NCBI GenBank assembly: GCA_016209985.1
Contig: JACQVB010000128.1
Location: 1 to 44,359, forward strand
DNA: 44,359 bases
Source: Gemmatimonadota bacterium
GTDB lineage: Bacteria; Gemmatimonadota; Gemmatimonadetes; Gemmatimonadales; GWC2-71-9
Direction: 5' to 3'
The notes beneath the pieces are model-generated. The model saw only the letters and a list, made by a program, of their open reading frames with translations. It was not told the DNA's origin and did no database searches. The position numbers and the translations under genes are program-made. Shown piece after piece: positions 2,512 through 17,752 of this stretch (the stretch's first letter is position 1; the number at the start of each line of letters is the position of its first letter).

Positions 2512-3513
2512 TTACGCGACCTGTGACTGGACGATGTGGGCTGCGCCGGAGCGACGCCCTAGCAGGTGCTCGGCGGCTTTTGCGGGGATGCCGAACAGCG
2601 TGGTAGCCGCCGCATCTGCCGCCATGCAGTTGTCGGCCCTGACGCTGATGCTGTGTAGCGGGGTGATCCGGGGCTCGGCCGTGGCCGGGTCGAGCAGGTG
2701 GTGGTATCGCCGGCCGCGATAGTCGAAATACTGGAAATAGTCCCCCGAGGTGGCCACCGCCTGGTTGGACAGCTCCAGCGTCGTGGTGATCCGCTCGGGA
2801 TCGCTCGCGGAGCGTACGCCGATGTTCCATGGATTGCCGTCTGCCGATTCACCGAGCGCATAAAGATCGCCACCGGCGTTCACCAACGCATCGCGAACGC
2901 CCCAGTCTCGCAGCGTGAGGACCGCCGCGTCCACGGCGTAGCCCTTGGCGATGCCTCCCAGATCGATCTGTACCTCCCGATCGGTGAAGCGAACGGCCGG
3001 GCGGCCCGACCAGGTGTCGAGGTCGATCGCGCGATAGAATCTCCGGTTGGCCAGCCTCCGAACGGCCGTGGCCGGGGGCGGCTCGTGACGGTGACCGACG
3101 TCCCAGGTCGCGACCACCGCGCCGACACCCGGATCAAAAGCGCCGTCGCTCGCCTCCGCCCAGTCCAGGGCAGCCCGAAGCACGCGGGCGGTCTCGCGGC
3201 TAAGCAGCACCGCCTCGCGGCCGGCTGTGAGGTTGGCCCGGCCCACTTCCGACGTGGCACTGAAGCGGCTCATGAGTCGCTCGACCCGGTATACGTCCTC
3301 CACCGCCGCGTCCATGGCGGCATGGGCGAATTGCCGGTCCCGGTGAGCCACGGCGATTTCCACCACCGTGCCCATCGCCGGAACAGTGCGGTGCACCAGC
3401 ACCCGCTGCCGCCGCACCCAGGGTATGGTCGAAACAACGAACGCGCCCACGCCCAGCGCCAGGAATTGCCGGCGGGAAGGACGGCGTCCCTTGCTGGTTT
3501 CGAATTCGGTCAT
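2512..3513 (-). CDS. apbE: FAD:protein FMN transferase (ApbE)
   Basis: ApbE moves FMN from FAD onto a threonine of RnfG and RnfD on the outer face of the inner membrane. The 333 residues begin with a twin-arginine-like leader (SRRQFLALG, 13-21) followed by a hydrophobic stretch, so export is expected. Family motifs are present: DPGVG at 127-131, GGIAKGYAVD at 186-195, NAGGD at 212-216, ATSGDY at 254-259, HHLLDP at 271-276 and ADNCMAADAAAT at 293-304. These form the FAD and Mg2+ site. The start overlaps the stop of the preceding NqrM-like gene by 4 bp. The acceptor TGAT motifs are encoded in the same operon, so the role is well supported. Confidence 0.95.
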   Translation of the reverse strand: MTEFETSKGRRPSRRQFLALGVGAFVVSTIPWVRRQRVLVHRTVPAMGTVVEIAVAHRDRQFAHAAMDAAVEDVYRVERLMSRFSATSEVGRANLTAGREAVLLSRETARVLRAALDWAEASDGAFDPGVGAVVATWDVGHRHEPPPATAVRRLANRRFYRAIDLDTWSGRPAVRFTDREVQIDLGGIAKGYAVDAAVLTLRDWGVRDALVNAGGDLYALGESADGNPWNIGVRSASDPERITTTLELSNQAVATSGDYFQYFDYRGRRYHHLLDPATAEPRITPLHSISVRADNCMAADAAATTLFGIPAKAAEHLLGRRSGAAHIVQSQVA

Positions 3514-3695
3514 GCCTCAACTCCTCTAGAAACCCCGTTATCCCCGGCCTCGGGGCGGCGCCGGCAAGCTCCACAGCCGCCATGATCGTCGCCGACGGAG
3601 CAGTCGCCGCAGCCCGCTCCCGCGTCCTGCCGCCAAAACAGCGTGAATCCGGCGAACAGTGCCGCGCAGACCAGGATCACCAGGATCTCGGTCAT
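3510..3695 (-). CDS. NqrM-like four-cysteine single-pass membrane protein
   Basis: This 61-residue protein has one N-terminal membrane segment (about residues 4-20) and two CxxC pairs, C29/C32 and C41/C44, in a Gly/Asp-rich tail. That layout matches NqrM (DUF539), a small protein needed to deliver iron for the Fe-Cys4 centre between NqrD and NqrE; NqrM genes lie beside apbE in nqr operons. Here it sits between rnfA and apbE, overlapping each by 4 bp. RnfA and RnfE are the NqrE/NqrD homologues, so the inferred job is metallocentre assembly in Rnf. It is shorter than typical NqrM (about 70-85) and the call rests on architecture and context, not on an alignment. Confidence 0.65.
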   Translation of the reverse strand: MTEILVILVCAALFAGFTLFWRQDAGAGCGDCSVGDDHGGCGACRRRPEAGDNGVSRGVEA

Positions 3696-4270
3696 CCAGA
3701 GCTCAGCAGGCCGGCGAAGCCCATGAAGGCGAGCGAGAGGCTGCCGGCGATGAGCAGAACCAGAGCGGTTCCCCGGACCGGTTGCGGGATGTTTGCCAGC
3801 TCGGAGCTTTCCCGGATTGACGCCATCAGTACCAGCGCCAGCGTGAGTCCGGCACCCGCTCCCACCGCGAAGGACAGCCCTTCGAGAAAGTCGTATCCTC
3901 GGCTGGTCTGGAAAATGGCGAGACCCAGAATGGCGCAGTTGGTGGTGATGAGCGGCAGGTAGATGCCCAGTTCCCGGAACAGGACTGGGCTCACTTTCTT
4001 GATCACCATTTCAACGATCTGTACCAGCGACGCGATCACGACGATGAACGAGATCAGCCGCAGGTACGGGGCGTAGACCAGCACGAAGGTGTTGAGCACC
4101 CACACGCACACGGCGGTCATCACCAGCACGAAGGTGTTCGCTGCCCCCATTCGCAACGCCGTGGCGATGCGGTTGGATACGCCGATGAAAGGGCAGAGTC
4201 CCAGGAACAGCATCAGGGTGAAGTTGTTCACCACCATCGCCGAGACGAAGATCCAGGTCAGCTCGCCCAT
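3692..4270 (-). CDS. rnfA: Rnf complex membrane subunit RnfA
   Basis: RnfA is an integral membrane subunit of the ion-translocating ferredoxin:NAD+ oxidoreductase and, with RnfE, holds an intramembrane iron-sulfur centre. The 192-residue protein has six hydrophobic segments. Both conserved half-sites with the cysteines are seen: NNFTLMLFLGLCPFIG near residue 25 and LPLITTNCAILGLAIF near residue 110. Length matches the family (about 190-195). The start codon shares one base with the rnfE stop (TAATG), and the stop overlaps the NqrM-like gene, so translation is coupled. RnfA and RnfE are paralogues; this one is assigned RnfA by its short N-terminus and the TTNCAILG motif. Confidence 0.93.
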   Translation of the reverse strand: MGELTWIFVSAMVVNNFTLMLFLGLCPFIGVSNRIATALRMGAANTFVLVMTAVCVWVLNTFVLVYAPYLRLISFIVVIASLVQIVEMVIKKVSPVLFRELGIYLPLITTNCAILGLAIFQTSRGYDFLEGLSFAVGAGAGLTLALVLMASIRESSELANIPQPVRGTALVLLIAGSLSLAFMGFAGLLSSG

Positions 4271-4992
4271 TACGCCACCTTTCCGACCGTCGGTGCGCAG
4301 GCCGGTTCATTGACCGGCACGGCACGTCCTGCCTTCCGCTGCCGCCACCAGCCGACCACGAGGAGCAGGGCGCCCAGGGTGAGAAATCCGCCCGGCGGCA
4401 GCACCATGATGACCCACGGCTCGTACGACGGCCCGAAGAGGCTGCGGCCGAGCAAGGTCCCACTCCCGAGGATTTCCCGGATCGTGCCCATGAGCAGCAG
4501 CGTGAGGATGAACCCGAATCCCATGCCGAGGGCGTCCAGCGCCGAGCGGCCCACGGATTGCCTGGACGCGAATGCTTCCGCCCGAGCCAGGATGATGCAA
4601 TTGACCACGATCAGCGGCACGAATGCGCCGAGGCTCTTGTGGATTGCTGGGGCCACCGCCTCCAGCGTCATGTCGGCCACCGTTACGAATGTGGCGATGA
4701 TCAGGACGAAGGTGGCAATCCGAACCTGATCCGGCACCCACCGCCTGATCCCGGAAACCAGTACGCAGGAGCCGACCAGGACGAACAGGGTGGCCAGACC
4801 CATGGCGATGCTGTTGGCGACGCTGTTGGTCACCGCCAGCGTGGGACACATGCCCAGTACCTGAACCAGGACCGGGTTCTCCTTCCACACGCCCCGCAGC
4901 AGATCCTCCCGCGGTGCCACCGGCCGGCGGGCGCGAGGCGCCACCGGTGCCCCGTGCGTCATGGAGGCCGGCTCGACGGCGCCGTGGGTCAT
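4270..4992 (-). CDS. rnfE: Rnf complex membrane subunit RnfE
   Basis: RnfE pairs with RnfA in the membrane core of Rnf. This 240-residue protein begins with a polar Pro/Ala/Arg-rich stretch of about 30 residues, then the family start LLRGVWKENPVLVQVLGMCP with its first cysteine. The second half-site VPLIVVNCIILARAEAFAS follows. The N-terminus carries MTHGA twice (residues 1 and 11), so an internal ATG ten codons in is possible. ATG at 4992 overlaps the rnfG stop as ATGA and is preferred. RnfE proteins are usually 200-235 residues, so the leader makes this one slightly long. It has six predicted membrane spans and the C-terminal GWWRQRK typical of a cytoplasmic end. Confidence 0.93.
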   Translation of the reverse strand: MTHGAVEPASMTHGAPVAPRARRPVAPREDLLRGVWKENPVLVQVLGMCPTLAVTNSVANSIAMGLATLFVLVGSCVLVSGIRRWVPDQVRIATFVLIIATFVTVADMTLEAVAPAIHKSLGAFVPLIVVNCIILARAEAFASRQSVGRSALDALGMGFGFILTLLLMGTIREILGSGTLLGRSLFGPSYEPWVIMVLPPGGFLTLGALLLVVGWWRQRKAGRAVPVNEPACAPTVGKVA

Positions 4993-5654
4993 TGAGTGGC
5001 GTTCCGGGCGTAGGCGTCCATGATCGGACCGAGGCGGGCGATGGTCTGGTTGATCGCGCGGATCACCGTGCGCGATGAGATGGTGGCACCGGTGATCATG
5101 TCCACCTGGCTGGCGTCGCCTGCTTTGCCGCTTCCCCGCTTGACGCCGTTCAGGGGTACGGCGGCTCCCTCGAATTCCCCGATGAAGGCAGAGTCCTTGA
5201 GGATCTTGTCTCCCAATCCCGGCGTTTCCTTGCTTTCCAGGACCTTCATGGCCATGAGGTGGCCGGTCTTCGGGTCGTAACCGAAGATCAGCCTGATCAC
5301 GTCCTGGAAGCCCGGCTCCGCGGCGGCAACGGCGAATCCCACGGAGCCGCCGTTACCCCGATGCCCGAGGTAGACCTGCTCGAGCTTGGTTCGATCCAGG
5401 CCGGCGGCCGGCTCGGTCTCCAATTTGCCGTCCACGAGGTAGAGAGTGTCGTACGAGTCGGGCTCCTTCAGCACCTCGTTGATCGCCTGCCTCAGCACCT
5501 CGGCCTTGTGGGCCTGGATCGATGGCTGGGTCCACCGGAAAACGACCACGATGAGCAGGCCGGCCAACGCACCCAGACCACCCAGGGTGGTGACCAGGCG
5601 CGACGTGCGGACATCGGCCGCCGCGGGCTGGCCGGTTCCGGCGGGGTCGGTCAC
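4989..5654 (-). CDS. rnfG: Rnf complex FMN-binding subunit RnfG
   Basis: RnfG is a membrane-anchored, outward-facing flavoprotein carrying FMN bound covalently to threonine. The 221-residue reading has one membrane helix (about residues 21-40) and an FMN-binding domain with ETPGLGDKI (about 143-151) and DMITGATISSRTV. The TGAT motif is at 188-191, so Thr191 should be the ApbE target. The start chosen is GTG at 5652-5654, which overlaps the rnfD stop as GTGA. The frame stays open far upstream, but that part runs antisense to the conserved RnfD reading and is rejected. The stop overlaps rnfE by 4 bp. Confidence 0.92.
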   Translation of the reverse strand: MTDPAGTGQPAAADVRTSRLVTTLGGLGALAGLLIVVVFRWTQPSIQAHKAEVLRQAINEVLKEPDSYDTLYLVDGKLETEPAAGLDRTKLEQVYLGHRGNGGSVGFAVAAAEPGFQDVIRLIFGYDPKTGHLMAMKVLESKETPGLGDKILKDSAFIGEFEGAAVPLNGVKRGSGKAGDASQVDMITGATISSRTVIRAINQTIARLGPIMDAYARNATQ

Positions 5655-6658
5655 CGCACCCCCGTTACTCGCCCCGTCCCGAAGACGCGCGGCTGGGTGA
5701 CGCGGTTGATGAAGGGGACCATGGCGTTCATCAGGAGGATGCCGTACATGACGCCCTCGGCCAGCCCCCCCCAGATTCTGATCACGACCACCAGCACGCC
5801 GATGCCGGCGCCGAAGATCCAGCTTCCCAGGTTGGTCACCGGCGACGTGACCATATCGGTGGCCATGTAGGTCGCGCCCAGCACCAGACCGCCGGAAAAC
5901 AGCATGAAGGCCGGTGCGGGGAACCGTGGCGCATCGAGGAGGTGGAGCATCTCCGCCAGGATGGCCACCGCGGCGAAGACGCTCACCGGGATTCGCCAGT
6001 TGAGGTAGTTCTTGAGCGCGAGATACGTCCCGCAGAGCAGGATGACCAACGCGGAGGTTTCTCCCAGCGATCCGCCCGTGGTGCCGAAGAACAAGTCGGA
6101 GACCGGTGTCCCGGCGTGCTCGAACTTCATCAGGCCGAGCGGTGTTGCTCCAGTGATCGCGTCGGTGGCTCCGGCGCTCATCAGCGGCAGCGCGAGGTTG
6201 TCCCCCCGCAGTTCCCACCAGGTGCCGCCCGGCTTGGGCCAGGTCGTCAGTGCGACGGGGAACGCCGCCTGGAGAAACGCGCGGCCCAGGAGCGCGGGGT
6301 TGAAGACGTTCTGTCCCAGCCCGCCGAAGATCAGCTTACCGAAGCCGATGGCGAAGGCACCGCCCACGAACGCCATCCAGATCGGCAGGCCGGCCGGTAG
6401 CGTCAGGCCGAGCAGGATGCCGGTGATCATGGCGGACCCGTCGAGCAGGGTGCGGCCCTTCCCGAACCAGAACTCCGTGACCAGCGCTCCCAGTGTGGCG
6501 GCGGCCACCACCAGCAGCGCGCTCACACCGAAGAAGTAGCTCGCGGCAGCGAGGACCGGCCCGAGACTCGCGACCACCGTCCACATGATTCGTGGAGTGG
6601 AATCGGGGGTCGAGAGATGCGGTGAGGCGGTGACGACCAACGGGTTGGATGAGCTCAT
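5651..6658 (-). CDS. rnfD: Rnf complex membrane flavoprotein subunit RnfD
   Basis: RnfD is the NqrB-like membrane subunit of Rnf, with covalent FMN on a threonine and probably part of the ion channel. This 335-residue protein has about ten hydrophobic segments. The flavinylation motif ITGATPLG sits at 168-175, so Thr172 is the expected FMN site. A second GAT lies just before it at 163-165 (SAGAT) and is unlikely to be the acceptor. GGLGQNVFNPALLGRAFL at 112-129 is a strong family signature. ATG 6658 overlaps the rnfC stop as ATGA. Length fits the family (about 310-350). Confidence 0.94.
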   Translation of the reverse strand: MSSSNPLVVTASPHLSTPDSTPRIMWTVVASLGPVLAAASYFFGVSALLVVAAATLGALVTEFWFGKGRTLLDGSAMITGILLGLTLPAGLPIWMAFVGGAFAIGFGKLIFGGLGQNVFNPALLGRAFLQAAFPVALTTWPKPGGTWWELRGDNLALPLMSAGATDAITGATPLGLMKFEHAGTPVSDLFFGTTGGSLGETSALVILLCGTYLALKNYLNWRIPVSVFAAVAILAEMLHLLDAPRFPAPAFMLFSGGLVLGATYMATDMVTSPVTNLGSWIFGAGIGVLVVVIRIWGGLAEGVMYGILLMNAMVPFINRVTQPRVFGTGRVTGVR

Positions 6659-7980
6659 GCCGCGCTCTGCCGCTGGCGGATCGCCACCCGGGCCGCCTGG
6701 AACAGCTGCGGAAGCGGGATGTTCGAGGGGCAGGCGTAGGAGCAGCATCCACACAGCATGCAGTCGGCCAGGTGATTCGCCGTCATCTCGTCGTACCGCC
6801 CCGCCAGGGCCAGGCTGCCCAGCAACTGGGGATTGAGAAATACCGGGCAGGCGTCCAGGCAACGGCCGCAGCGGATGCAGGGGTAGGATTCCTCCGCCTT
6901 GCAGTCGGATTCGGTGAGCACCACGACCCCGGTCGTTCCCTTGAGCAGCGGGACATCGAGGTTGGCCTGGGCGACGCCCATCATCGGGCCTCCGAACACC
7001 ACCTCACGCGCGTCCGGGGTCATCCCGCCGCAGGCGTCCAGCAGATAACGCAGAGGCGTCCCGACCGGCACGATCAGGTTGGAGGGCCGCCGGATGCCGC
7101 GGCCGGTGACGGTCACGATCCGCTCGATGAGGGGCAGGCCGGTCTCGAACACTTCGGCGATGGTCGCCACCGACGCGATGTTCTGCACCACGGTGCCCAC
7201 ATGCAGCGGCAGCTTCCCCGAGGGGACTTCACGGCCCACCAGGGCCCTGATCAGCATCTTCTCAGCGCCCTGCGGATACTTGACCGTGAGCGGCTGCACC
7301 GCGACGTCGATGTCGCCGGGCAGCGAGGATCGCAGCGCCGCGATCGCGTCGGGCTTGTTTCGCTCGATCCCGATCACGGCCCGGCGCACGCCGAGGCACT
7401 GCATCATGATCCGCACGCCCAAGTGCACCCGCTGGGGATACTCCACCATGGTGCGATGATCGGTGGTCAGGTACGGCTCGCACTCGCAACCGTTGATGAT
7501 CAGGACATCGATCGCCTGGTCCTTGGGCGGGGACAGCTTGACGTGGGTCGGGAACGCCGCTCCGCCGAGCCCCACCACCCCCGCTTTGCGTATGGCTTCG
7601 ATCAGTTGCTCGCGAGTGAGTCCCTTCCAGTCCGGGACGATGCGCGGCCGCGGCGCCTGCGGGGAGTATGGCTCGACCGCTATCCGAACGGCCGGAGCGA
7701 AGCTGCCGTCCGGGTGAGGCCATAGGCCCACCGCATCGACCCGTCCGGCGGCCGAGGCGTGGACCGGCGAGGACATCCAGCCATCCGCCTCCGCGACCGT
7801 GTCGCCCCGCTCGACCCGGTCACCCGGCTTGACGATCGCCTTGGCCGGTTTGCCGGTGTGCTGCCGGAGCGGGAGGATCACCTCTTCCGGGTAGGGCAGG
7901 CGGCGGATGGCCGCGCTCCGCGTGAGCGCCTTGAGGTCCGGCGGGTGCACCCCGTGTCGGAAACTGAAGCGCGGGATCAC
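6655..7980 (-). CDS. rnfC: Rnf complex NADH-binding subunit RnfC
   Basis: RnfC is the peripheral cytoplasmic subunit that carries FMN, binds NAD(H) and passes electrons from ferredoxin-side clusters to NAD+. The 441 residues start with the RnfC N-terminal barrel (FRHGVHPPDLKALT), then the biotinyl-lipoyl-like segment with KPGDRV and SPVHAS. The Complex I 51-kDa-like core follows, with GLGGAAFPTHVKL and INGCECEPYLTTD. Two 4Fe-4S motifs close it: CIRCGRCLDAC at 368-378 and CMLCGCCSYAC at 407-417. Length is typical of compact RnfC proteins. It starts 7 bp after the giant oxidoreductase stop and overlaps rnfD by 4 bp. Confidence 0.95.
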   Translation of the reverse strand: MIPRFSFRHGVHPPDLKALTRSAAIRRLPYPEEVILPLRQHTGKPAKAIVKPGDRVERGDTVAEADGWMSSPVHASAAGRVDAVGLWPHPDGSFAPAVRIAVEPYSPQAPRPRIVPDWKGLTREQLIEAIRKAGVVGLGGAAFPTHVKLSPPKDQAIDVLIINGCECEPYLTTDHRTMVEYPQRVHLGVRIMMQCLGVRRAVIGIERNKPDAIAALRSSLPGDIDVAVQPLTVKYPQGAEKMLIRALVGREVPSGKLPLHVGTVVQNIASVATIAEVFETGLPLIERIVTVTGRGIRRPSNLIVPVGTPLRYLLDACGGMTPDAREVVFGGPMMGVAQANLDVPLLKGTTGVVVLTESDCKAEESYPCIRCGRCLDACPVFLNPQLLGSLALAGRYDEMTANHLADCMLCGCCSYACPSNIPLPQLFQAARVAIRQRQSAA

Positions 7981-7987
7981 GCGGTCC

Positions 7988-10900
7988 TCACGCGAACCGT
8001 TCCGCTCGCTTGAGCCACTTGGTCAGGTCCCGCTCCTTGGGATTCAGCGGCGTTCCGGGGTGGATGATCGCGACCGGACACCGCTCGGCGGCAAGCACCA
8101 GCTCGCGGAACGTCCCGGCCCGCGGGTCCTTGATGTACGCCTGCTTCTTGTCGTTGTAGGCGAACAGCTTGTTGTTGAGGTTGGTGCACTCATCGCAGGT
8201 GGTGCACCGCGCCGTGTCGATATAGGCCTCGACGACCAGCTCTTCGGTTGCCTGGGCCGCGGTGACCGTGGCAGGTGCCGCAGCCGGAGCGGCGGGAGCC
8301 GGCGCGGCGGCCTTGGCGGTGGCAGGCTCCGGTGCGACGACCACGGCCGCCCCGCCGTTCCCATCCGCGCCCGAGGTCAGGTCCGTCGGGATCGCCGGTG
8401 CCCGGGCGATCAAGTCCTCCAGCCGGTCGGTGGTGCTTCCGGCGCGCAGCAACGCGTCCGCCATGCGCCGCGCGATGATCTTGGGGAAGCGGGTCCGCAG
8501 GTCCGCCAGCTTGCCCTCGTACTCGCTCTTCATGGCCGCGAGCCGGCGCTCGAATTCGCCTTCCAGTTCCTGCTCCACCACGCCGCGGGCCACCGGCGGG
8601 ACCTCACGTCCCGCCAACTGCTTGAGGAGTGACCAGTACTGCAGCCGCTCCTCCGCGAGCTGCACGATCTCGGTGGACACCAGCGCCCGCCCTAGCTTCC
8701 GGTCGGGCTGCAGCGCGCAGATGAACGGCTTCTTCTCTTCACGTTCTTCCCGGGACAGCCCCAGGAATTCGTGGAACGGCACCAGTTCCTCGGGCGGGGT
8801 ATCGGCCGGAACCCGCCGGAAGTGTTTGCGGAACCGGCTCTCCGTCGCGGCCCAATCGGCGGCGGTGAGCGGAAGCGTCATCACCTGCTCGCGCCCCTCG
8901 TCATCGAGGTAGCGCAGGTCGTAGGCCGGCCAGGGGTCGTCCAGCGACGGGTTGCCGTCCAGGTTGAGGCGATCGGCGAGCGCCGGCCCCTGGTCGGGAT
9001 CGTACACCAGGAGCGGAAACGCCCGAGCTTCCAGGGCGAGACGTGCCGCGCGCGTCGCGGCGTCGTCGCCCAGCCCGTGCTCGGGTGGGCAGGGGCAATG
9101 CAGCACGAAGACCGCGGGTCGCCGCGATTGGAGCCCCCGCAGCACACCGCCCAGCAGATGCGCCGGCGCGGCTTGCGAGCCCTGGAGCACGAACACGTTG
9201 CGGTGCGCGATGGAAATCAGGCCCAGCTCCTTGCGCACCTCCTCCTTACCGTGCTGGTAGGCGCCGAAGGCCGCCATGTCGGACACCTGGCCGGTGAAGC
9301 CGCTGGTGCACGCCTGCCCGCCGGTGTTGGAGTAGACCTGGGTGTCCAGCACGATCACGCGAAGCGGTTTCCCCGACGCCATAAGGCGGGACAGGTTCTG
9401 GAACCCGATATCCAGCATGGCCCCATCGCCTCCGACCGCGCAGATCGGCGGGCACATCCCGAACTCCTCGTCGGTGAACTGCCGCCAGTCGAACCTGGTG
9501 AAGAACGACTCGTGGGTCCTGGCGTCGTACTGGTCCGCCAGCTCCAGTTCCGCCCGGCGCACCTCGATGAACCCGTCGGCCATCTTCCGCATGTGGCCCT
9601 CGAAGATGCCGATGGCGATCGATGGCGCGTCCTGAAACAGATGATTGACCCAGGGGAAGGGATACGGATTGTACGGGTAGGTGCTTCCCCACACCGAGGA
9701 GCAGCCCGTCGCGTTCGCGATCCCCAGGGTCGCGCGGCCCTTCCCGCTCGGGCCGGCGGTGTAACGCCAACGCAAGTCCTTGAGTTGGCCGATCACTCGG
9801 GAGATCCGGTCCACCCGCTCCCGCTTGGTGCCCTCCAGCGGAATCTCCACCCGGCCGGCCTGGGGAACTGCGACCGCTTCCAGGTTGGCGTCCGCCGCGA
9901 GCAACTCGCGGGCTTTGTGGTCCAGCCGGGCAATCAGGTCGTCGAGCCGTTCCACGTGCTTACGGACCCGCGGAATCATCAGGGCGTTGACCGCCGACAG
10001 GACCACGTGCATCGCAGTCTTCTCCCCGCATCCCATACATGCGCCGTCGCCACCGAACATCGAGCGGTAGGTCTCCTTGCGCAGCAGCAGGGAAGACAGC
10101 ACCCCGATGCCCTGTTCGAGGTCGCTCACGTTGATGTAGCGGGGGTTGGTGTCGGGCAGGAGCTGCCACAGCGACAGGTTGCGCCGCAGCTGGTCCACGA
10201 TGGACTCGGTCTGCCGCACCGTGACCAGCGCTCCGTCGGGACAGACCTCGACGCAGAGATTGCAGCCCTTGCACGCCTCCGGATTGATGACGATCGAGAG
10301 CAGCCCGCCCGTTCCCTTGGCGCGCGACTCGGGGACCTCGAAGAACGGCTTGGTCCGTGCCAGCGGGAAGTCGGCCAGCGTCGCGTAGAGCGGCGCGAAC
10401 TCCGCGTCCATGGCCGCCCGGCGCTCGGGATCGGGATTCAGCTTGTCCACTACGATGCGGTAGGCGGCCGAGAGCACCTCGCCGAAGCCGGTGAACGGGA
10501 CGCCGGTGAGGATCCGGTGTGCTTCCCGTGCCAACGGCTTGGCGATCGGGCGCAGCCGGTCGACCGATTGGGTCTGCGAGACCCGGGCGAGGCCGGCCTC
10601 GATGAGCTCGTCGGCCGAGTTCACCAGCGCCGGAATGGCCGCGTCGGGACATTGGACCCAGCACTGGCTGCACCCGGTGCACTTCTCCGCCAGGAAGCTT
10701 GGGACCTCGAAGCGAACATCGGTCATGTCGCGGATGGTGCTGGTAGCCGCGGGAATGGCGCTGAGCGCGGCGAACGGGTCGGCGATCCCGTCCTGCCCGG
10801 TGCGATAGAGATATCCGACCTGTTCCCAGAAACGGCCCGGATTGCCCGTCCCGGGCTCCATGCCGGTGCCGTCGAGCAGTGCGGGCAGCACCGGCAACGC

Positions 10901-13030
10901 GCCCAGCTCCCGTTCCTTGTCCTTGAGCGGTGCCAGATCGAGTGCGCGGACCTCGTCGTAGCCGCGCTGGATGACCCGCAGGTTGTCCTCCACGACCTGC
11001 TGGCCCAGGTGTCCGAACTTCTTCTTGAGCTGGGTCCCGATGCCGGCGAACAACCGCGCGCGGTCCAGGCCTTCCCGGGCCGCGAGCGGGGAAGCGTGGA
11101 AGAAGGCCCCGAGGAACGCCGCGCCCTGCATCCGGTAGCGCAGCTCCGCGTCCGAGGCTTCGGACGTGGCGATCTTGAACCCGTCCAGGTAGAAGACGCT
11201 GATCTTCCGCGCGCGGATCTCGCGCTGCGCGGCCGCGGGGAAGGTCTCCCACAGAGCCTGCGGCTCGAGATCGGTCTGGATGACGAAGACGCCGCCGTCC
11301 GCCAGTCCGGCGACCGGATTGGAGTGCCGGAACACGTTGGGGTCGGGTGACAGCACCACGTCGACGTGCTTCAGCTCGCAGTTGAGCCGCACCGCCTCGC
11401 GCGACAGCGTGGCGTAGAACGTCGTGGGCTGCCCCTTTTTCTCGGATCCGTATTTGGGATTCGCCTTGATCTGCAGTCCCAACAGCTCGGACGCCGTCAT
11501 CGCCAGGTTCTTGCCCATCGTGATCGCGCCCCACCCGCCTACCGAATGGATCCGCACCGCCAGCGATCCCGGCGGCTGCAGGTTGAGGTCCCCCGAGGGC
11601 GGGAGCGCCAGCGAGCTCAGGTGGGGATAACTCTCCAGCAGTTGCTGCTGCCAGATCTGCAGCTTGGGCAGGCGGGTGTCCGGGCGCACGAATTCGATCC
11701 CCAGATAGAACTGGCGCAGGCGCCGGGCGCCTTCCACCATGTTTTCGACCGCCGCCAGCAGGTCGCTTGGCTGGACGTCGCGGCTGCCGAGTCCGAAGCA
11801 GCCGGAGAAGAACTCCGGCACGTCCTCGCTACGGCAGGCGGCGAGCCCGGGGTGCGGCCGGCCGTTCTTGGATCTGCCGTTTTCCACCGCCTGGGACATC
11901 GCGGCGCGGATTTCCCGCAATAGCGGCGGATCGACCGCCAGAGGTTGATCGGTCCGCTCCAGGACGGTCACGGCCCGCTTGCCCCGAAGGAGCTGCGAGA
12001 TCAGATCGGCCGGGAAGGGGCGGAACATCGTGACGTTCACCACGCCCAGTTTGATCCCGCGGGTCTCCCGGAGATGGTCACACAGCGCTTCGGCGTTCCA
12101 CACCACCGACCCCTGCCCCACGAGCACGTAGTCCGCGTCCTCGGTTCGGTAGCCGGTTGCACGGGCATAGCGGCGGCCGGTGAGCGCGGCAAACTCCTCG
12201 AACGCCCGGTCGGCCAGCTGGGCGATATGATCGAAGTAGAAGGGGCGTTGGGCGGCCACGCCCTGTGCGTAGCTGTCCTGGTTCTGCACCACGCCCAGCA
12301 TGGCCGGGTAATCGAGATCGAACAGCTCCGGAATTCTCCGGCGGCGCTCACCGAACACCAGGCGCTGCGCGGGGGTGGGCGAGTCGATCAGGTCGGCAGG
12401 GTCACCCAGGTACTCCCGGATCAGGTCCGGCTCCGGCAGGCGGACCGACTCGATGATGTGGCTAGTGAGGAATCCGTCCTGGGCGCAGATGCCGGGGTTC
12501 AGCGACAGCTCCGCGATTCGATGCGCGATCAGATTCAGGTCGGCGACTTCCTGGACGTTTTTCCCGAAGACCTGAAAGAACCCGGTGTCGTCGACCGCAT
12601 GGTAATCGTCGTGGCCCGCGTGAACGTTGAGCGCGTGCTTGGACATCGCGCTGCAGGCGATGTTGAGCACGTAGGTTAGCCGTTTCCCTGCCGCGGCGTA
12701 CAGCGACTCGTGCATGTAGGCGATGCCCTGGCCGCTCGAGAAGTTGGTGGCCCGGAGCCCTACCAGACTCAACCCCGCCGTCACCGCGGCCGCAGCGTGC
12801 TCGCCTTCGGGCTCGAAAAACAACAGTCGCCGGCCGTTGACGTTGGTCTTGCCCTCGGCGGCCGCCACCGCCCACCCCTCCCCCATCTGGGTCGAGGGGG
12901 TGATGGGATACGCGCCAGCCGCTTCGCTGGCGGCGGTCTCCATACTCACGACCGCAGCGCTGCCATCAACGGCGGTCGGAATGCCGGGGTACTTCGGGGC
13001 GGCCGGAGCCGGGTTTTTCCACAGCTTCAT
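7988..13030 (-). CDS. Giant single-chain pyruvate:ferredoxin (flavodoxin) oxidoreductase with C-terminal ferredoxin-like domain
   Basis: This 1680-residue protein should oxidise pyruvate or another 2-oxoacid with CoA and reduce ferredoxin. The NifJ domain order is clear: pyrimidine-binding domain with YPITPST at 41-47, transketolase-C-like domain (about 270-420), gamma domain (about 490-690), ferredoxin domain with CTGCSQCWVQC at 784-794 and CKGCNLCVEVC at 920-930, then the TPP domain with CMGCG at 998-1002, GDG at 1201-1203 and NTGGQ at 1235-1239. Two things are unusual. About 125 residues separate the two cluster motifs, far more than in classical enzymes. After about residue 1400 there is a charged helical region, an Ala/Pro linker (about 1567-1590) and a last domain with CTTCDEC at 1609-1615 and CP at 1651. 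NifJ is normally about 1170-1200 residues. ATG 13030 overlaps the rnfB stop. Confidence 0.93.
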   Translation of the reverse strand: MKLWKNPAPAAPKYPGIPTAVDGSAAVVSMETAASEAAGAYPITPSTQMGEGWAVAAAEGKTNVNGRRLLFFEPEGEHAAAAVTAGLSLVGLRATNFSSGQGIAYMHESLYAAAGKRLTYVLNIACSAMSKHALNVHAGHDDYHAVDDTGFFQVFGKNVQEVADLNLIAHRIAELSLNPGICAQDGFLTSHIIESVRLPEPDLIREYLGDPADLIDSPTPAQRLVFGERRRRIPELFDLDYPAMLGVVQNQDSYAQGVAAQRPFYFDHIAQLADRAFEEFAALTGRRYARATGYRTEDADYVLVGQGSVVWNAEALCDHLRETRGIKLGVVNVTMFRPFPADLISQLLRGKRAVTVLERTDQPLAVDPPLLREIRAAMSQAVENGRSKNGRPHPGLAACRSEDVPEFFSGCFGLGSRDVQPSDLLAAVENMVEGARRLRQFYLGIEFVRPDTRLPKLQIWQQQLLESYPHLSSLALPPSGDLNLQPPGSLAVRIHSVGGWGAITMGKNLAMTASELLGLQIKANPKYGSEKKGQPTTFYATLSREAVRLNCELKHVDVVLSPDPNVFRHSNPVAGLADGGVFVIQTDLEPQALWETFPAAAQREIRARKISVFYLDGFKIATSEASDAELRYRMQGAAFLGAFFHASPLAAREGLDRARLFAGIGTQLKKKFGHLGQQVVEDNLRVIQRGYDEVRALDLAPLKDKERELGALPVLPALLDGTGMEPGTGNPGRFWEQVGYLYRTGQDGIADPFAALSAIPAATSTIRDMTDVRFEVPSFLAEKCTGCSQCWVQCPDAAIPALVNSADELIEAGLARVSQTQSVDRLRPIAKPLAREAHRILTGVPFTGFGEVLSAAYRIVVDKLNPDPERRAAMDAEFAPLYATLADFPLARTKPFFEVPESRAKGTGGLLSIVINPEACKGCNLCVEVCPDGALVTVRQTESIVDQLRRNLSLWQLLPDTNPRYINVSDLEQGIGVLSSLLLRKETYRSMFGGDGACMGCGEKTAMHVVLSAVNALMIPRVRKHVERLDDLIARLDHKARELLAADANLEAVAVPQAGRVEIPLEGTKRERVDRISRVIGQLKDLRWRYTAGPSGKGRATLGIANATGCSSVWGSTYPYNPYPFPWVNHLFQDAPSIAIGIFEGHMRKMADGFIEVRRAELELADQYDARTHESFFTRFDWRQFTDEEFGMCPPICAVGGDGAMLDIGFQNLSRLMASGKPLRVIVLDTQVYSNTGGQACTSGFTGQVSDMAAFGAYQHGKEEVRKELGLISIAHRNVFVLQGSQAAPAHLLGGVLRGLQSRRPAVFVLHCPCPPEHGLGDDAATRAARLALEARAFPLLVYDPDQGPALADRLNLDGNPSLDDPWPAYDLRYLDDEGREQVMTLPLTAADWAATESRFRKHFRRVPADTPPEELVPFHEFLGLSREEREEKKPFICALQPDRKLGRALVSTEIVQLAEERLQYWSLLKQLAGREVPPVARGVVEQELEGEFERRLAAMKSEYEGKLADLRTRFPKIIARRMADALLRAGSTTDRLEDLIARAPAIPTDLTSGADGNGGAAVVVAPEPATAKAAAPAPAAPAAAPATVTAAQATEELVVEAYIDTARCTTCDECTNLNNKLFAYNDKKQAYIKDPRAGTFRELVLAAERCPVAIIHPGTPLNPKERDLTKWLKRAERFA

Positions 13031-13872
13031 GTGAGGACAACCTCCGCGGCGGCGTTGTGGGACGGCACGAACTGCCGATTCTCCACCCAGGCGATGGCGC
13101 CGGTGGGACAGCGCTGCATCGCCTCGGGTCCCGCGAGCTCGTTCAGGTTGTAGTCCACCACCGCCAACCCATTCACCATTTGGATCACGCCGGGGGCGGC
13201 GTCGAGCACGCATTTGCCGCAGGCGTTACACGCCACTCGACACAGGGCTTCGGCCGCCTCGCCCGCGAGCGGGCTCTTGCACTGAACGATGAGCTTGTGG
13301 TCCAGCGGGAGAATCACGAAGAGGTCGCGGGGGCAGGCCCGCACGCAGTCACCGCAGGCAGTGCATCGCTCCGGGATGACCACCGGAAGCGCCACTTCGT
13401 TCAGGTACATCGCGTCGAAGGTGCAGGCCTTCACGCAGTCGGCGAGGCCAAGGCATCCCCAGGGGCAGGCCTTGCCGCCGCCCGCCACGGCAGCCGCGGC
13501 CCGACAAGTCTGGAGCCCGACGTAGCCGGCGAGCTGCGGCGCCACGTCCGAGCCGCCGGCGCACAACAGCCGCGCGGTCCGGCGATGGACGTCACCCTCC
13601 TCGACGCCGAGATACGCGGCGACGTCCGCGCGGTTGTCGTCGCTGATCACGGTGCACGACGCCGGTTTTGCCGCGCGGGCTACCAGCTTTTCCGCCAGAT
13701 CCCGGCAGCCGGCGAAGCCGCAGGCGCCACAGTTGGTTCCCGGCAGCAAGCCGACCACCGCATCGACGCGCGGATCCTCCCACACCTTGAAACGACGATA
13801 GACCAGCGCGATGAGCACGGCGAAGAGGACGCCGACGGCGGCGAGAATCAGCGCGGAGAGCAGGATCTCCAT
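13027..13872 (-). CDS. rnfB: Rnf complex iron-sulfur subunit RnfB
   Basis: RnfB is the ferredoxin-docking subunit that feeds electrons into Rnf. The 281-residue reading starts with a membrane helix (about residues 4-24). Next comes the NCGACGFAGC motif (47-56) with a later Cys73, which binds one 4Fe-4S cluster. Several ferredoxin-type motifs follow: CPWGCLGLADCVKAC, CTACGDCVRAC and CNACGKC near the end. ATG 13872 lies 1 bp after the preceding stop. A GTG five codons upstream (13887) would extend it and overlap that gene; it is less favoured because the ATG has GGGTGA just before it. rnfB is separated from rnfC by the giant oxidoreductase, an unusual order. Confidence 0.93.
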   Translation of the reverse strand: MEILLSALILAAVGVLFAVLIALVYRRFKVWEDPRVDAVVGLLPGTNCGACGFAGCRDLAEKLVARAAKPASCTVISDDNRADVAAYLGVEEGDVHRRTARLLCAGGSDVAPQLAGYVGLQTCRAAAAVAGGGKACPWGCLGLADCVKACTFDAMYLNEVALPVVIPERCTACGDCVRACPRDLFVILPLDHKLIVQCKSPLAGEAAEALCRVACNACGKCVLDAAPGVIQMVNGLAVVDYNLNELAGPEAMQRCPTGAIAWVENRQFVPSHNAAAEVVLT

Positions 13873-13873
13873 G

Positions 13874-14875
13874 TCACCCGAGATCACTCAGCGACGTCTG
13901 ACTCAACAGCCAGGCGGCCAGCCGGTCGGCCGGGTCGGCGGGGGCACTGGGTGCGGTGGCGGCTCCGGCGGAAGGCTTGGTGACCAGCGCGTGAAGCTGC
14001 CGCAATTCTTCCATCTGTTGAAACGCGCTGCGGCCCCCGATCGCCACCCGCGGCTCGCGCTCCGGCACCCGAAGAACGGAGAGCCGATTCCACAACTCCG
14101 GACCCGCCGCCGGGTCGTGAACGAACCAGGCCGCACTTTCCGAGACCAGGGCGGCCACTCCCGGGCCCGGGTGGTCGGCGAGTCGCTGAACACCCTCCAC
14201 CTCACCGGTCTGCAGCACAAAAGTTCCGGGCGTGATGAGGCGGACCAGCGGCGCCGGCGCCGACGTGCCCCGCACCAGCAGGACGATTCGCACGCCCCCG
14301 TCCAGGAACTCCGCCAGACCCTCGACGTGGAGGTCATCTCCCGCCAGGTCGAGCACCAGCGGCGGAGCCAGCCGGCGTTCGGCCTTGGTCCATCGGTGGA
14401 ACGGGTACACCGCCAGCGACCCCGTGACCTGGGGCGGCGGGAGCTGTCCCGCCTTGGCGCGCTCCGCGACCCGGGCCGCCGCAAACGCCCGGCCGATCTC
14501 GGCGAGCGCCGATGCTACCACCGCGGCCGGATCCTCACCCGCCGGAACCGACCACTGGATCAGGTCGTCTTTGCGGCCGACCAGCTCGACCAGGGTCTCG
14601 TGTGCGCTTTCGACGGCTTCCATCATGCTCGGCTCAATCGGCCCGGAGTTGCCCAGTCGCGCCACAAAACGGTGCAGATCGATCCGCTTCGAGGCAAACG
14701 GCCCCAACTCGGCCTTCACCCTGTCCACCCGCAACTCCTCGGAGGCCTGGTGCGACTCCAGGTAGACGCGGAGCTGTTCGGCTGCCGTCACCAGGGCCGA
14801 TTGGAAAGCGGCGAAGGGCCGGGCCAACGCCCGGAGCGTCGGCTCGAGTCGGGGGTCGGGGGGCTCAGAGGGCAT
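13874..14875 (-). CDS. Uncharacterised cysteine-free protein between korB and rnfB
   Basis: I do not recognise this 333-residue protein. It appears soluble: no signal peptide and no membrane helix. Its N-terminal third is rich in amphipathic helix (FAAFQSALVTAAEQLRVYLE, then a heptad-like stretch to about residue 110). The middle (about 145-270) alternates short hydrophobic strands (LAVYPFHRW, VRIVLLVRG, GTFVLQTG) and suggests an alpha/beta or beta-sandwich domain. The tail is Ala/Pro-rich. It contains no cysteine, which stands out between iron-sulfur subunits and argues against a redox cofactor role. It overlaps korB by 11 bp and ends 1 bp before rnfB. A structural, assembly or regulatory partner of KGOR, the giant oxidoreductase or Rnf is an inference from position only. 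Confidence 0.75.
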   Translation of the reverse strand: MPSEPPDPRLEPTLRALARPFAAFQSALVTAAEQLRVYLESHQASEELRVDRVKAELGPFASKRIDLHRFVARLGNSGPIEPSMMEAVESAHETLVELVGRKDDLIQWSVPAGEDPAAVVASALAEIGRAFAAARVAERAKAGQLPPPQVTGSLAVYPFHRWTKAERRLAPPLVLDLAGDDLHVEGLAEFLDGGVRIVLLVRGTSAPAPLVRLITPGTFVLQTGEVEGVQRLADHPGPGVAALVSESAAWFVHDPAAGPELWNRLSVLRVPEREPRVAIGGRSAFQQMEELRQLHALVTKPSAGAATAPSAPADPADRLAAWLLSQTSLSDLG

Positions 14876-15809
14876 AACGATCCAGTTCCGCGTTGAGGAG
14901 CGCCACTCTCTGGTCGGCAGCTATCGTCGTCGGCCGGCGGGTTTCCTCGTATCGCGGGAGTGTCGGGTTTCGATAGAACAGGCCCAGCCGGAAGGCTCCT
15001 TCGTCGTCGGCCAGCCGGCGAGCAGTATCCAGGTCGGATGGGTCGTGAGGGGTCTTCCGCTGGTACAGTTGGTCCAGCTCCGGCACCACGATGCCGTTCG
15101 GGTGAACCAGAAGCTCGACCTTGCTCGGGTCCCGCACGGCCTGCTGGAAGATCTCAACCGTGTACTGTGGGCAACGCTGCAGGACGCGGACGAACGAGAA
15201 GCCGCGGTGTCGGTAGGCCGCCTGCAGCGTCGCGAACAGGTGCGCCGGCACCCAATCGGCGGTCTGGGCGACGAAAGAAGCGTTGGTCACTCCCAGGGTG
15301 ACCGACAACGGGTTCAGCGGCGGGAGGTAGGCCCCCTGGGGCTGGGTATTGCTGGGATATCCCTTGGGGCTCGTGGGCGAAGTCTGATTCTTGGTGAGCC
15401 CGTACACCTGATTGTCGAGCATCAGCGCTACCATGTCCACGTTGTAGCGGATGGCATGGATCCAATGCGCCGCGCCAATGGAGCAGCAATCTCCGTCCCC
15501 CATCACCACGAAGACTCGCAGGTCGGGACGGTGGAGCTTGATTCCGGTGGCCACCGGCAGCGCCCGTCCGTGGATCCCGTGAAAGCCGTAGGTGTGCAGG
15601 TAGTGTGGGAAGCGGCTGGCGCATCCGATACCCGACACGAACATGGTCTGCTCGGGAGCCAGTTGCTCGCTTTCCAGCAGCCGTTGGACCGCCGTGAGCA
15701 CCGCGTGATCCCCGCAGCCCGGGCACCAGCGCGCCACCGCGCCGGTGTAGTCCTCCAGATCGAATTCGCGATCCTCTTCCATGGTCGTAAAGAGGAGAGA
15801 GCCGGTCAT
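14865..15809 (-). CDS. korB: 2-oxoglutarate:ferredoxin oxidoreductase, beta subunit
   Basis: This is the TPP- and 4Fe-4S-binding subunit of a two-subunit 2-oxoacid:ferredoxin oxidoreductase, most likely for 2-oxoglutarate. The 314-residue reading has RWCPGCGDH with Cys29 and Cys32, SGIGCASRFPHY with a further cluster cysteine, and GDGDCCSIGAAHWIHAIRRY-like TPP-binding sequence at about 107-126. LDNQVYGLTKNQTSPTSPKG then follows. The TPTS/KNQTSPTS loop is typical of KorB/OorB. ATG 15809 overlaps the alpha-subunit stop as ATGA. Branched-chain or indolepyruvate enzymes share the fold; substrate choice is inferred from the KorA/KorB pairing. Confidence 0.9.
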   Translation of the reverse strand: MTGSLLFTTMEEDREFDLEDYTGAVARWCPGCGDHAVLTAVQRLLESEQLAPEQTMFVSGIGCASRFPHYLHTYGFHGIHGRALPVATGIKLHRPDLRVFVVMGDGDCCSIGAAHWIHAIRYNVDMVALMLDNQVYGLTKNQTSPTSPKGYPSNTQPQGAYLPPLNPLSVTLGVTNASFVAQTADWVPAHLFATLQAAYRHRGFSFVRVLQRCPQYTVEIFQQAVRDPSKVELLVHPNGIVVPELDQLYQRKTPHDPSDLDTARRLADDEGAFRLGLFYRNPTLPRYEETRRPTTIAADQRVALLNAELDRYAL

Positions 15810-17752
15810 CGTGTCTTCTCCCCGTTGCGCTGCCCGACACTGGCGCGGATGGCCTGCAGGATGCGGCCCGGACGGAGCGGCTCGCCGGGTACTCGGGTCC
15901 AGCAATCCACGTCCACCAGCGTCTGCGCCCGGAGCAGCCAGCAGAGTTGTCCTCGGCGCCGGTTTTCCTCCGTGATGAAAGGATCATCCGGTTCGTCGCT
16001 GTAGTTGATCTCCACGGTGATCACTTTGCCAAAACGACCGAAGATCTCCGAAAGCCCGGGCTCGAGCGGGGAAAGGAACCGCAGATGCAGCGACGATGCG
16101 GCCAGGCCCTCACGGCGCGCGCGGTCCACCGCTTCTTCGATCGCGCCCTTGGTGCTGCCCCATCCCACGATCAGGAGATCGCCGGAAGGAGGGCCATAGA
16201 CCGATGGCGGCGCCAGCATCTGCTGGAACACCGCCAGCTTGCGGCTGCGCATGGCGGAGCCACGCTGGTGGACGTCGGGGGTGTGGGCCACCTTGCTCGC
16301 TTCATCGTGTGAGAGGCCGGTCACGGTGTGCATGCCGCCGGGCTGGCCGGGAAGGAACCGGTGTGACAAGCCGCTCGCGGGGTCCCACTCGTAGGGTCGA
16401 ACCCCTTCCGGCGCCGGGCCGAGGTCGATAGGCGGTGCCTGCCAGCGGACGTCCAGGGTGGGCCGAGGGAACGGCTGCTGACCGGTGGCGAGATTGGCAT
16501 CCGACAGGATGATCACCGGGCAACGGAACGCCTCGGCGAGCCGCCGGGCGGTGGTCGGGCTGTGAAAACACTCCTCGATGGTGGCGGGCGCGAGCACGAT
16601 CTTGGGCGTGTCACCGGGCTGCCCGAAAACGGCCGCCAGCAAATCCGACTGTTCCACCTTGGTCGGCAGCCCGGTGCTGGGGCCGCCGCGCTGTACGTCC
16701 ATCACCACCAGGGGGATCTCGGTCATGCCGGCCAGACCGATGAACTCGGTCTTCAGGGCCAGGCCAGGCCCGGACGTCACGGTGAACGCCACCTTGCCTG
16801 CATAGGACGCTCCGATCGCGACGCCGCAGGCGGCGATTTCATCCTCGGCCTGGTGAACGACTCCACCGAACTTCTCGAAGATCGCGCCCAGATAGTGCGA
16901 AACCGACGTAGCCGGGGTGATGGGATACATGGCGCACAGCTCCATCCCGGCGGCGACCGCTCCCAGAGCCAGGGCCTGGTTCCCGTTCATGACCACCATG
17001 GCGCGCTCGGGCTTGCTCGCCGGAACCTCCAGCCGGAAAGCGAGGTTCTCACCTGCCCAGCGGTGTCCCAGCTCCAACAGGGCCACATTGGTGTCGCGCA
17101 CTTCCTGCGACTTCTTCCGGAATTGATGCACGACGAGCTGCCGGGCCAGATCGAGATCGCGGGAGTAGAGATGGATCAGCATCCCCAGGACGAACATGTT
17201 CTTGCCGAGCCGCGGCTCGTCGGTGACGCTGAGGCACTGCTCCTCCATCGGGACACCGATCACGCGGTAGGAACGGGTCCCTAGCTCCGCCATGGCCGTT
17301 TCCCAGGCCTGCCGCACCGTTTCATCAGGGTGGCTGGCCCACATGTTTTCGATCAGGATGACCGCATCGGGTGCGAGGGCGTCGAGCCGGTGTCGTGCCA
17401 GGAGCACCTGCTCATTGAAGGCCACTACCAGATTGGTCGCGTCGCCCCAGTTCGTGACCGGCTGGGTCCCCACCCGAATGCGATTTCCGCTAGCGCTGCC
17501 GAGGGTCCGGGGGGGCGGTTGGATCTCCGCCGGAATGATCTCTACCGTCCATATGCCGTTGCCCATGCGGGCGCAGACCGTGCCAAAAATCTGGCCGCAC
17601 TTCTGAGCCCCCTCACCGGCGTCGGAGACGACCTCCAGGGTATGCTCGGGCAACGTGATGGTGGTGGGCTCCATCGTACCCTGAGCAGATCGGTCTTGGG
17701 GCTGGGGAATGACGACTGCGGCGCCATTGGCCGCGGGGAAGCCTTGGGACAC
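15806..17752 (-). CDS. korA: 2-oxoglutarate:ferredoxin oxidoreductase, fused gamma-alpha subunit
   Basis: First gene of the operon. The 648-residue protein has an N-terminal gamma domain (GEGAQKCGQIFG at about 46-57) fused to the alpha pyrimidine-binding domain (MNGNQALALGAVAAG, then AMYPITPATS near residue 285) and a C-terminal transketolase-C-like domain. TSGPGLALKTEFIGLAG and DVQRGGPSTGLPTKVEQSDL are strong KorA signatures. Start choice: GTG 17752 is preceded by GGAAGGCGGAG and is used here. ATG 17674, 26 codons later, fits the usual KorA N-terminus better but has only a weak AGGG before it. With korB it should convert 2-oxoglutarate and CoA to succinyl-CoA and reduced ferredoxin, or the reverse. 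Confidence 0.9.
   Translation of the reverse strand: MSQGFPAANGAAVVIPQPQDRSAQGTMEPTTITLPEHTLEVVSDAGEGAQKCGQIFGTVCARMGNGIWTVEIIPAEIQPPPRTLGSASGNRIRVGTQPVTNWGDATNLVVAFNEQVLLARHRLDALAPDAVILIENMWASHPDETVRQAWETAMAELGTRSYRVIGVPMEEQCLSVTDEPRLGKNMFVLGMLIHLYSRDLDLARQLVVHQFRKKSQEVRDTNVALLELGHRWAGENLAFRLEVPASKPERAMVVMNGNQALALGAVAAGMELCAMYPITPATSVSHYLGAIFEKFGGVVHQAEDEIAACGVAIGASYAGKVAFTVTSGPGLALKTEFIGLAGMTEIPLVVMDVQRGGPSTGLPTKVEQSDLLAAVFGQPGDTPKIVLAPATIEECFHSPTTARRLAEAFRCPVIILSDANLATGQQPFPRPTLDVRWQAPPIDLGPAPEGVRPYEWDPASGLSHRFLPGQPGGMHTVTGLSHDEASKVAHTPDVHQRGSAMRSRKLAVFQQMLAPPSVYGPPSGDLLIVGWGSTKGAIEEAVDRARREGLAASSLHLRFLSPLEPGLSEIFGRFGKVITVEINYSDEPDDPFITEENRRRGQLCWLLRAQTLVDVDCWTRVPGEPLRPGRILQAIRASVGQRNGEKTR

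Follow-up and report, generated by a model that had tools for sequence, protein, structure and literature searches.

The window, 44,359 nucleotides of contig JACQVB010000128.1 from a soil-type Gemmatimonadota bacterium, encodes inside an rnf operon a 1680-residue pyruvate:ferredoxin oxidoreductase (PFOR) relative that carries its own ferredoxin-like module at the end of a flexible C-terminal linker. With this leash and the Rnf pump found together, and lost together, in several phyla, the enzyme, here called PFOR-Fd, probably passes its electrons directly to Rnf. Ferredoxin is usually regarded as a freely diffusing pool that links the enzymes reducing it to Rnf. We found no description of a PFOR-Rnf arrangement or of a tether to Rnf among the open-access papers searched, and the main text of a genome survey covering energy conservation across 326 Gemmatimonadota makes no mention of Rnf or ferredoxin (PMC9426454).

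A giant oxidoreductase gene between rnfB and rnfC

The PFOR-Fd ORF runs on the minus strand from 13030 to 7988 and is translated into 1680 aa with no internal stop. Its ATG (13030) overlaps the stop codon of rnfB (ATGA), and rnfC starts 7 bases downstream of its own stop. The gene order on the minus strand is korA, korB, a gene for a 333-aa protein, rnfB, PFOR-Fd, rnfC, rnfD, rnfG, rnfE, rnfA, apbE, with the following assignments:

15806-17752, minus strand: korA, 2-oxoacid:acceptor oxidoreductase alpha with N-terminal gamma domain (PF01558 at 17063-17620; YPITP motif)
14865-15905 (ORF limits), minus strand: korB, 2-oxoacid:acceptor oxidoreductase beta (TIGR02177, PF02775)
13874-14875, minus strand: conserved 333-aa protein between korB and rnfB, no Pfam match (hhalign)
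13027-13887, minus strand: rnfB (family models; adjacent to PFOR-Fd in relatives)
7988-13030, minus strand: giant 2-oxoacid (pyruvate-type):ferredoxin oxidoreductase with C-terminal tethered ferredoxin (ORF, Pfam, relatives)
6655-7980, minus strand: rnfC (TIGR01945, 518 bits, cut-off 246)
5651-6661, minus strand: rnfD, probable start within ORF 5651-6862 (position between rnfC and rnfG, membrane-protein sequence)
4989-5600, minus strand: rnfG domain, residues 207-393 of ORF 4989-6218, limits approximate (TIGR01947)
4270-4992, minus strand: rnfE (TIGR01948)
3692-4270, minus strand: rnfA (PF02508; TIGR01943 at 226.1 bits, slightly below its cut-off of 229.3)
2512-3513, minus strand: apbE, FMN transferase for RnfG/RnfD (PF02424)

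All six rnf genes (rnfA, B, C, D, E, and G, with rnfD identified by position) are thus present and co-linear, and relatives keep this order, including the place of rnfD between rnfC and rnfG and that of korA upstream of korB. Besides PFOR-Fd, the genome holds other 2-oxoacid oxidoreductases and several E1-type 2-oxoacid dehydrogenase genes (PDH/OGDH-like); given the latter, PFOR-Fd would be an additional low-potential route. The rnf genes, which close with apbE, are immediately followed by a CitMHS_2-type transporter gene (window 1056-2480, minus strand), and a cation-coupled carrier of this kind would fit an Rnf ion gradient.

The core enzyme is a distant relative of NifJ

The Pfam domains POR_N, PFOR_II, POR, Fer4s, TPP_enzyme_C, and Fer4_13 all lie on one chain. 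The original prediction, made from the sequence before any database search, had called the NifJ domain order complete, which holds for the first five of these domains; the Pfam EKR domain was not detected in PFOR-Fd. The main elements of the core are:

12398-12931, minus strand: POR_N ThDP-binding domain, residues 34-211, with an intact YPITPS motif (Pfam, E 2.6e-41)
11888-12136, minus strand: PFOR_II domain, residues 299-381 (Pfam, E 6.4e-15)
10955-11539, minus strand: POR gamma-type domain, residues 498-692 (Pfam, E 1.3e-25)
10649-10681, minus strand: first Cx2Cx2Cx3C [4Fe-4S] motif, C784-C794 (invariant in 30/30 relatives)
10241-10273, minus strand: second Cx2Cx2Cx3C [4Fe-4S] motif, C920-C930 (invariant in 30/30 relatives)
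9293-9448, minus strand: ThDP beta-domain motifs GGDGA and YSNTGGQ, residues 1195-1246 (Pfam; motifs conserved)

The ThDP motifs and the cluster cysteines are intact, the latter at exactly the positions that had been predicted (784/787/790/794, 920/923/926/930, 1609/1612/1615, and 1651), and the foreseen gap of about 125 residues between the two internal motifs is one of 125 residues from C794 to C920. Four further conserved cysteines (C998, C1001, C1110, and C1314) flank the ThDP beta-domain motifs and are the probable ligands of the proximal cluster. The enzyme is readily matched to the PFOR structure 6cin (phmmer E 4e-80) and scores 372 bits against the NCBIfam NifJ equivalog TIGR02176, below the cut-off of 911. 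This score and the undetected EKR domain make PFOR-Fd a distant NifJ relative, for which pyruvate would be the likeliest substrate. Ser127 of the window enzyme (codon at window 12650-12652, minus strand) aligns to R114 of the Desulfovibrio africanus enzyme, which we take to be the pyruvate-binding arginine, and 29 of the 30 relatives have Arg at this position. Ser127 may be a real substitution, perhaps with an effect on the activity of the window enzyme or on the substrate that it takes, or an assembly base error.

The C-terminal extension ends in a ferredoxin fold

The usual end of a PFOR falls at about residue 1410-1475 of the chain (an estimate from alignment ends; the solved PFORs have 1171 and 1232 aa). 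The extension beyond it, first put at about 280 residues, is real, with an estimated length of about 205-270 residues, and comprises three predicted parts:

8444-8596, minus strand: 51-residue helix ahead of the linker, residues 1479-1529 (AF2)
8243-8383, minus strand: disordered acidic Ala/Pro-rich linker, residues 1550-1596 (AF2 pLDDT < 50)
7991-8230, minus strand: tethered single-[4Fe-4S] ferredoxin module, residues 1601-1680 (Fer4_13, AF2, Foldseek)

Residues 1540-1600 are 49% Ala and Pro and have a pI of 4.2. The module consists of 80 residues with the ligands C1609, C1612, C1615, and C1651, and residues 1604-1657 match Fer4_13, the 'single cluster domain of Ferredoxin I', above the curated cut-off (E 3.5e-7). 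A C-terminus set behind an Ala/Pro linker, and a cluster-binding fold within it, had both been anticipated from the sequence: AF2 returns the disordered linker followed by a ferredoxin fold (pLDDT 88-96 over residues 1601-1680), and the best Foldseek match of this model in the PDB is 1fxr, ferredoxin I of D. africanus (TMt 0.84, rmsd 0.9 Å over 58 columns). The fold model and ligand pattern therefore lead us to infer a single-cluster [4Fe-4S] ferredoxin. The charges of the module and of RnfB display no obvious complementarity.

All four cysteine ligands of the module are invariant in 30/30 relatives, and identity by column is about 75% in the module as against 34-38% in the linker. The Cx2Cx2C...C signature was found in each of the 47 tethered PFORs examined from five phyla, and the spacer that separates core and first ligand, measurable in 39 of these 47, ranges from 65 to 165 residues. 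With its ligands constant and its spacer length variable, the C-terminal stretch evolves as a tether.

A close relative of PFOR-Fd is encoded in 60 of 298 Gemmatimonadota genomes; the ferredoxin end is visible in 54 of the 60 enzymes, the genes of the remaining 6 being cut by contig ends. An assembly artefact or frameshift is therefore rejected, as the fusion is shared by tens of independent genomes. In one single-contig genome (G125) the gene appears as two distant pieces, but the break lies in runs of N and represents a scaffold gap; the gene of G158 looks split in a similar way.

The spread internal ferredoxin domain is common to giants without a tether

The original prediction also pointed to the wide separation of the two internal [4Fe-4S] motifs. 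This spread domain is present and is due to one insert:

10337-10615, minus strand: helical insert spreading the 2x[4Fe-4S] domain, about residues 806-898 (AF2 pLDDT 84-95)

In a Foldseek search with the insert region (residues 700-1110), PFORs ranked first, though only weakly matched (E 8e-3), and nothing new emerged. The spread domain is unrelated to the tether, as it is found in giants with neither tether nor rnf. These type II giant PFORs, of about 1510-1610 aa where complete and 35-40% identical, share the internal inserts of the window enzyme and occur in Verrucomicrobiota, Acidobacteriota, Planctomycetota, Bacteroidota, Actinomycetota, and others; the spacing in four of them (L037-L040) is akin to that created by the window's insert. 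Among the best 80 tether-less giants, drawn from many phyla, none (0/80) has a C-terminal ferredoxin module and none has a credible RnfB or RnfC neighbour, the sole match (L057) being 21% identical. Since the helical insert occurs equally in these tether-less, rnf-less enzymes, giant size and the spread domain are old and common, and we reject the spread domain as a special feature of Rnf-linked enzymes. It is the C-terminal module, not the spread domain, that sets the window's enzyme type apart.

The tethered enzyme is paired with rnf

It had further been suggested that homologues with the module should neighbour rnf, and of the 48 PFOR-Fd loci read, from five phyla, 45 indeed have the gene inside rnf or next to it. 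RnfB and/or RnfC adjoin it at 30/30 Gemmatimonadota loci, and rnf adjoins it at all 4 Planctomycetota loci mapped, in 7/7 Verrucomicrobiota, in 2/2 Bacteroidota, including the cultured Persicobacter psychrovividus, and in 2/5 Acidobacteriota, the other three genomes of which have rnfC elsewhere.

Presence and absence across whole genomes follow the same pattern. Both the enzyme and rnfC are found in 58 of the 298 Gemmatimonadota genomes, the enzyme only in 2, rnfC only in 6, and neither in 232 (Fisher's test, 3.5e-52, the genomes not being independent of one another). In the two enzyme-only genomes, one gene and one rnfC, respectively, are cut by contig ends. The six rnfC-only genomes belong to another class, with rnfCDGEA and without tethered enzyme or module (L189-L191, from G001, G011, and G005, are loci of this kind), from which it follows that Rnf does not need the tether. 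Among Planctomycetota, rnfC is present in 11 of the 12 Fd+ genomes versus 45 of 187 others. Within one genus (g4), three genomes have both enzyme and rnf and two have neither, so that the two are gained or lost jointly.

The most telling case is one genome, G039, a complete chromosome (99% complete, one contig). Its enzyme (L188 7111-11613, minus strand), a tether-less type I form, is 63% identical to PFOR-Fd and breaks off near residue 1520, where the linker would follow; neither rnfC nor a ferredoxin module was found anywhere in the genome. In the tree this enzyme is nested in the tethered clade as sister to that of L030 (support 0.951): a natural co-loss, in which the tether disappeared along with Rnf.

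The same module on a partner of KorAB

A profile search with the module also finds the ferredoxin fused to a protein of about 700-1350 aa, which we call X-Fd. X-Fd corresponds to the C-terminal half of PFOR (hhalign E 2.6e-92 to residues 935-1680), is without GDG and YSNTGGQ, and is encoded after korA-korB; it is thus a putative catalytically dead, PFOR-derived partner of KorAB. At seven loci (L170, L173-L177, and L179), X-Fd is followed by rnfB, a PFOR-like gene, and rnfC, with rnfDGEA where the contig reaches that far. The PFOR-like gene is clearly related to PFOR (hhalign E 8e-145) and has lost YPITPS, GDG, and YSNTGGQ, so that its product, too, looks catalytically dead; both Cx2Cx2Cx3C motifs are kept in most. 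The 333-aa protein of the window likewise aligns to the X-Fd family (hhalign E 1.5e-14) and to PFOR residues 1148-1365 (E 4.8e-4), with no Cys and no ferredoxin, and by these profile matches is a degenerate relative of X-Fd derived from the PFOR ThDP/beta domain. Dead PFOR folds are plausibly reused as wiring or scaffold.

Five X-Fd loci (L164, L165, L167, L178, and L195) have no rnf and read nfnA-nfnB-korA-korB-X-Fd. Four of them are from Acidobacteriota, in whose genomes no rnfC was found, and the fifth (L178) is from Bacteroidota. NfnAB is an NADH-dependent, electron-bifurcating ferredoxin:NADP+ oxidoreductase. Co-occurrence with rnf and absence without it, as expected of a private carrier for Rnf, therefore hold for the PFOR fusion, while the fusion to the KorAB partner is also found with Nfn. 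As such, the module is not specific to Rnf; carried by PFOR or X-Fd and placed beside Rnf or Nfn, it is a general means of pairing ferredoxin:NAD(P)+ oxidoreductases with enzymes that oxidise 2-oxoacids.

Proposed electron path and alternatives

Most likely, the tether serves as a private carrier that joins a 2-oxoacid oxidoreductase to a ferredoxin:NAD(P)+ oxidoreductase, in this case to RnfB, and we consider it rather probable that PFOR-Fd carries its acceptor on a leash as a private, non-diffusible link to that subunit. In the path that we infer, electrons from the 2-oxoacid would pass via ThDP and the three [4Fe-4S] clusters inside the enzyme, reaching the distal 2x[4Fe-4S] domain. The tethered module, with its single cluster, would swing on its 65-165-residue spacer between that domain and RnfB, and RnfB would feed RnfA/E, G, and D, then RnfC, and finally NAD+, with ion pumping, unless electrons take the opposite course along the entire chain. 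The tether would thereby bring PFOR and Rnf together in a supercomplex or, failing that, keep the local concentration high, and KorAB with the degenerate PFOR partner of the operon would probably use the same outlet. The original prediction was that the tether could be wired to either RnfB or RnfC. In the Rnf complex of Acetobacterium woodii, ferredoxin is thought to dock on RnfB, from which electrons move first to RnfA/E, then to the flavins in RnfG and RnfD, and last to RnfC, direct transfer between RnfB and RnfC being unlikely (PMC11889175). The idea of a tether is thus supported, with RnfB as the likelier partner, and RnfC is disfavoured as a docking site on the same grounds (PMC11889175).

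The tethered ferredoxin might instead act more generally, relaying electrons within the molecule or serving as a hub for docking, so that free ferredoxin or other partners are reduced faster, with Rnf as only one downstream user of a common pool. The module beside NfnAB without rnf, the three PFOR-Fd genes that do not adjoin rnf, and the other 2-oxoacid oxidoreductases of the window genome would suit such a role. We nevertheless regard it as unlikely: the co-occurrence of PFOR-Fd and rnfC is near-perfect, tether and rnf were lost together in G039, not one of the best 80 tether-less giants lies beside rnf, and the partners in both settings are ferredoxin:NAD(P)+ oxidoreductases.

Another alternative differs from the private link to RnfB in direction only. 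Rnf, driven by the ion gradient and NADH, would reduce the tethered ferredoxin and so drive the reductive carboxylation of acetyl-CoA to pyruvate and of succinyl-CoA to 2-oxoglutarate. Rnf is reversible (PMC11889175, PMC12174285), the several E1-type dehydrogenase genes leave no obvious need for a further oxidative route, and both PFOR and KorAB are in the operon; however, these two equally fit as anoxic oxidative enzymes, and we judge the reverse direction improbable. That the C-terminal domain is a vestigial fusion in a passive neighbourhood, as fusions and clustering can be neutral, is hardly credible, being already disfavoured by the invariant ligands, a module that is strongly conserved while its linker evolves fast, the recurrence of the PFOR-Fd/rnf pairing in five phyla, and the fact that the single loss seen accompanies loss of rnf.

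Beyond the private link to RnfB, a broader reading is possible, which we advance tentatively: a general wiring system in which a swinging single-cluster ferredoxin, on a giant PFOR or on a dead KorAB partner, would plug 2-oxoacid oxidoreductases directly into Rnf or NfnAB, giving a supercomplex of soluble enzyme and ion pump. Its wiring would be made of PFOR folds, including dead ones whose iron-sulfur chain is retained.

Relation to known systems and distribution

PFOR-Fd shares with the NifJ-type PFORs of D. africanus and Moorella thermoacetica (TIGR02176) the domain order, the three sets of cluster-binding motifs, and YPITPS/GDG/YSNTGGQ, and differs from them in its two helical inserts, its linker and ferredoxin, and its location inside rnf. 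The module has the single-[4Fe-4S] Cx2Cx2C...CP fold of D. africanus ferredoxin I (1fxr/1dax) but is a covalent C-terminal domain, unlike that free protein. Pyruvate:NADP+ oxidoreductase (PNO) of Euglena and Cryptosporidium is likewise a PFOR fused to its acceptor; that acceptor, unlike the one in PFOR-Fd, is a flavin reductase giving NADPH, with no ion pump. As in the Rnf systems of A. woodii and Clostridium tetanomorphum, rnfB, C, G, E, and A (by family models), rnfD (by position), and apbE are present, whereas here a 2-oxoacid oxidoreductase gene with its own ferredoxin stands between rnfB and rnfC. NqrF of Na+-NQR also has a flexibly linked ferredoxin-like domain that sends electrons into an Rnf/Nqr membrane core, but this domain is [2Fe-2S], NADH-fed, and part of a subunit of the pump itself (PMC10643135).

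A covalently held carrier, if that is what the module is, would mean that low-potential electrons are channelled and protected from side reactions. In PFOR-Fd there would be a concrete candidate, open to isolation, for a supercomplex of PFOR and Rnf, and removal of the tether would make channelled versus free ferredoxin directly testable. The lineages with the tether include the cultured Gemmatirosa kalamazoonensis and P. psychrovividus.

The gene of one of the Gemmatimonadota genomes (G080) is 100% identical to the G. kalamazoonensis copy on NZ_CP007129.1. In both cultured organisms a megaplasmid of about 1.1 Mb carries the PFOR-rnf operon (Gemmatirosa, L030/L047 = NZ_CP007129.1; Persicobacter, L198 = NZ_AP025293.1), and in the tree the Planctomycetota sequences nest among the Gemmatimonadota ones. 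The megaplasmid location and this nesting make horizontal transfer of the operon likely.
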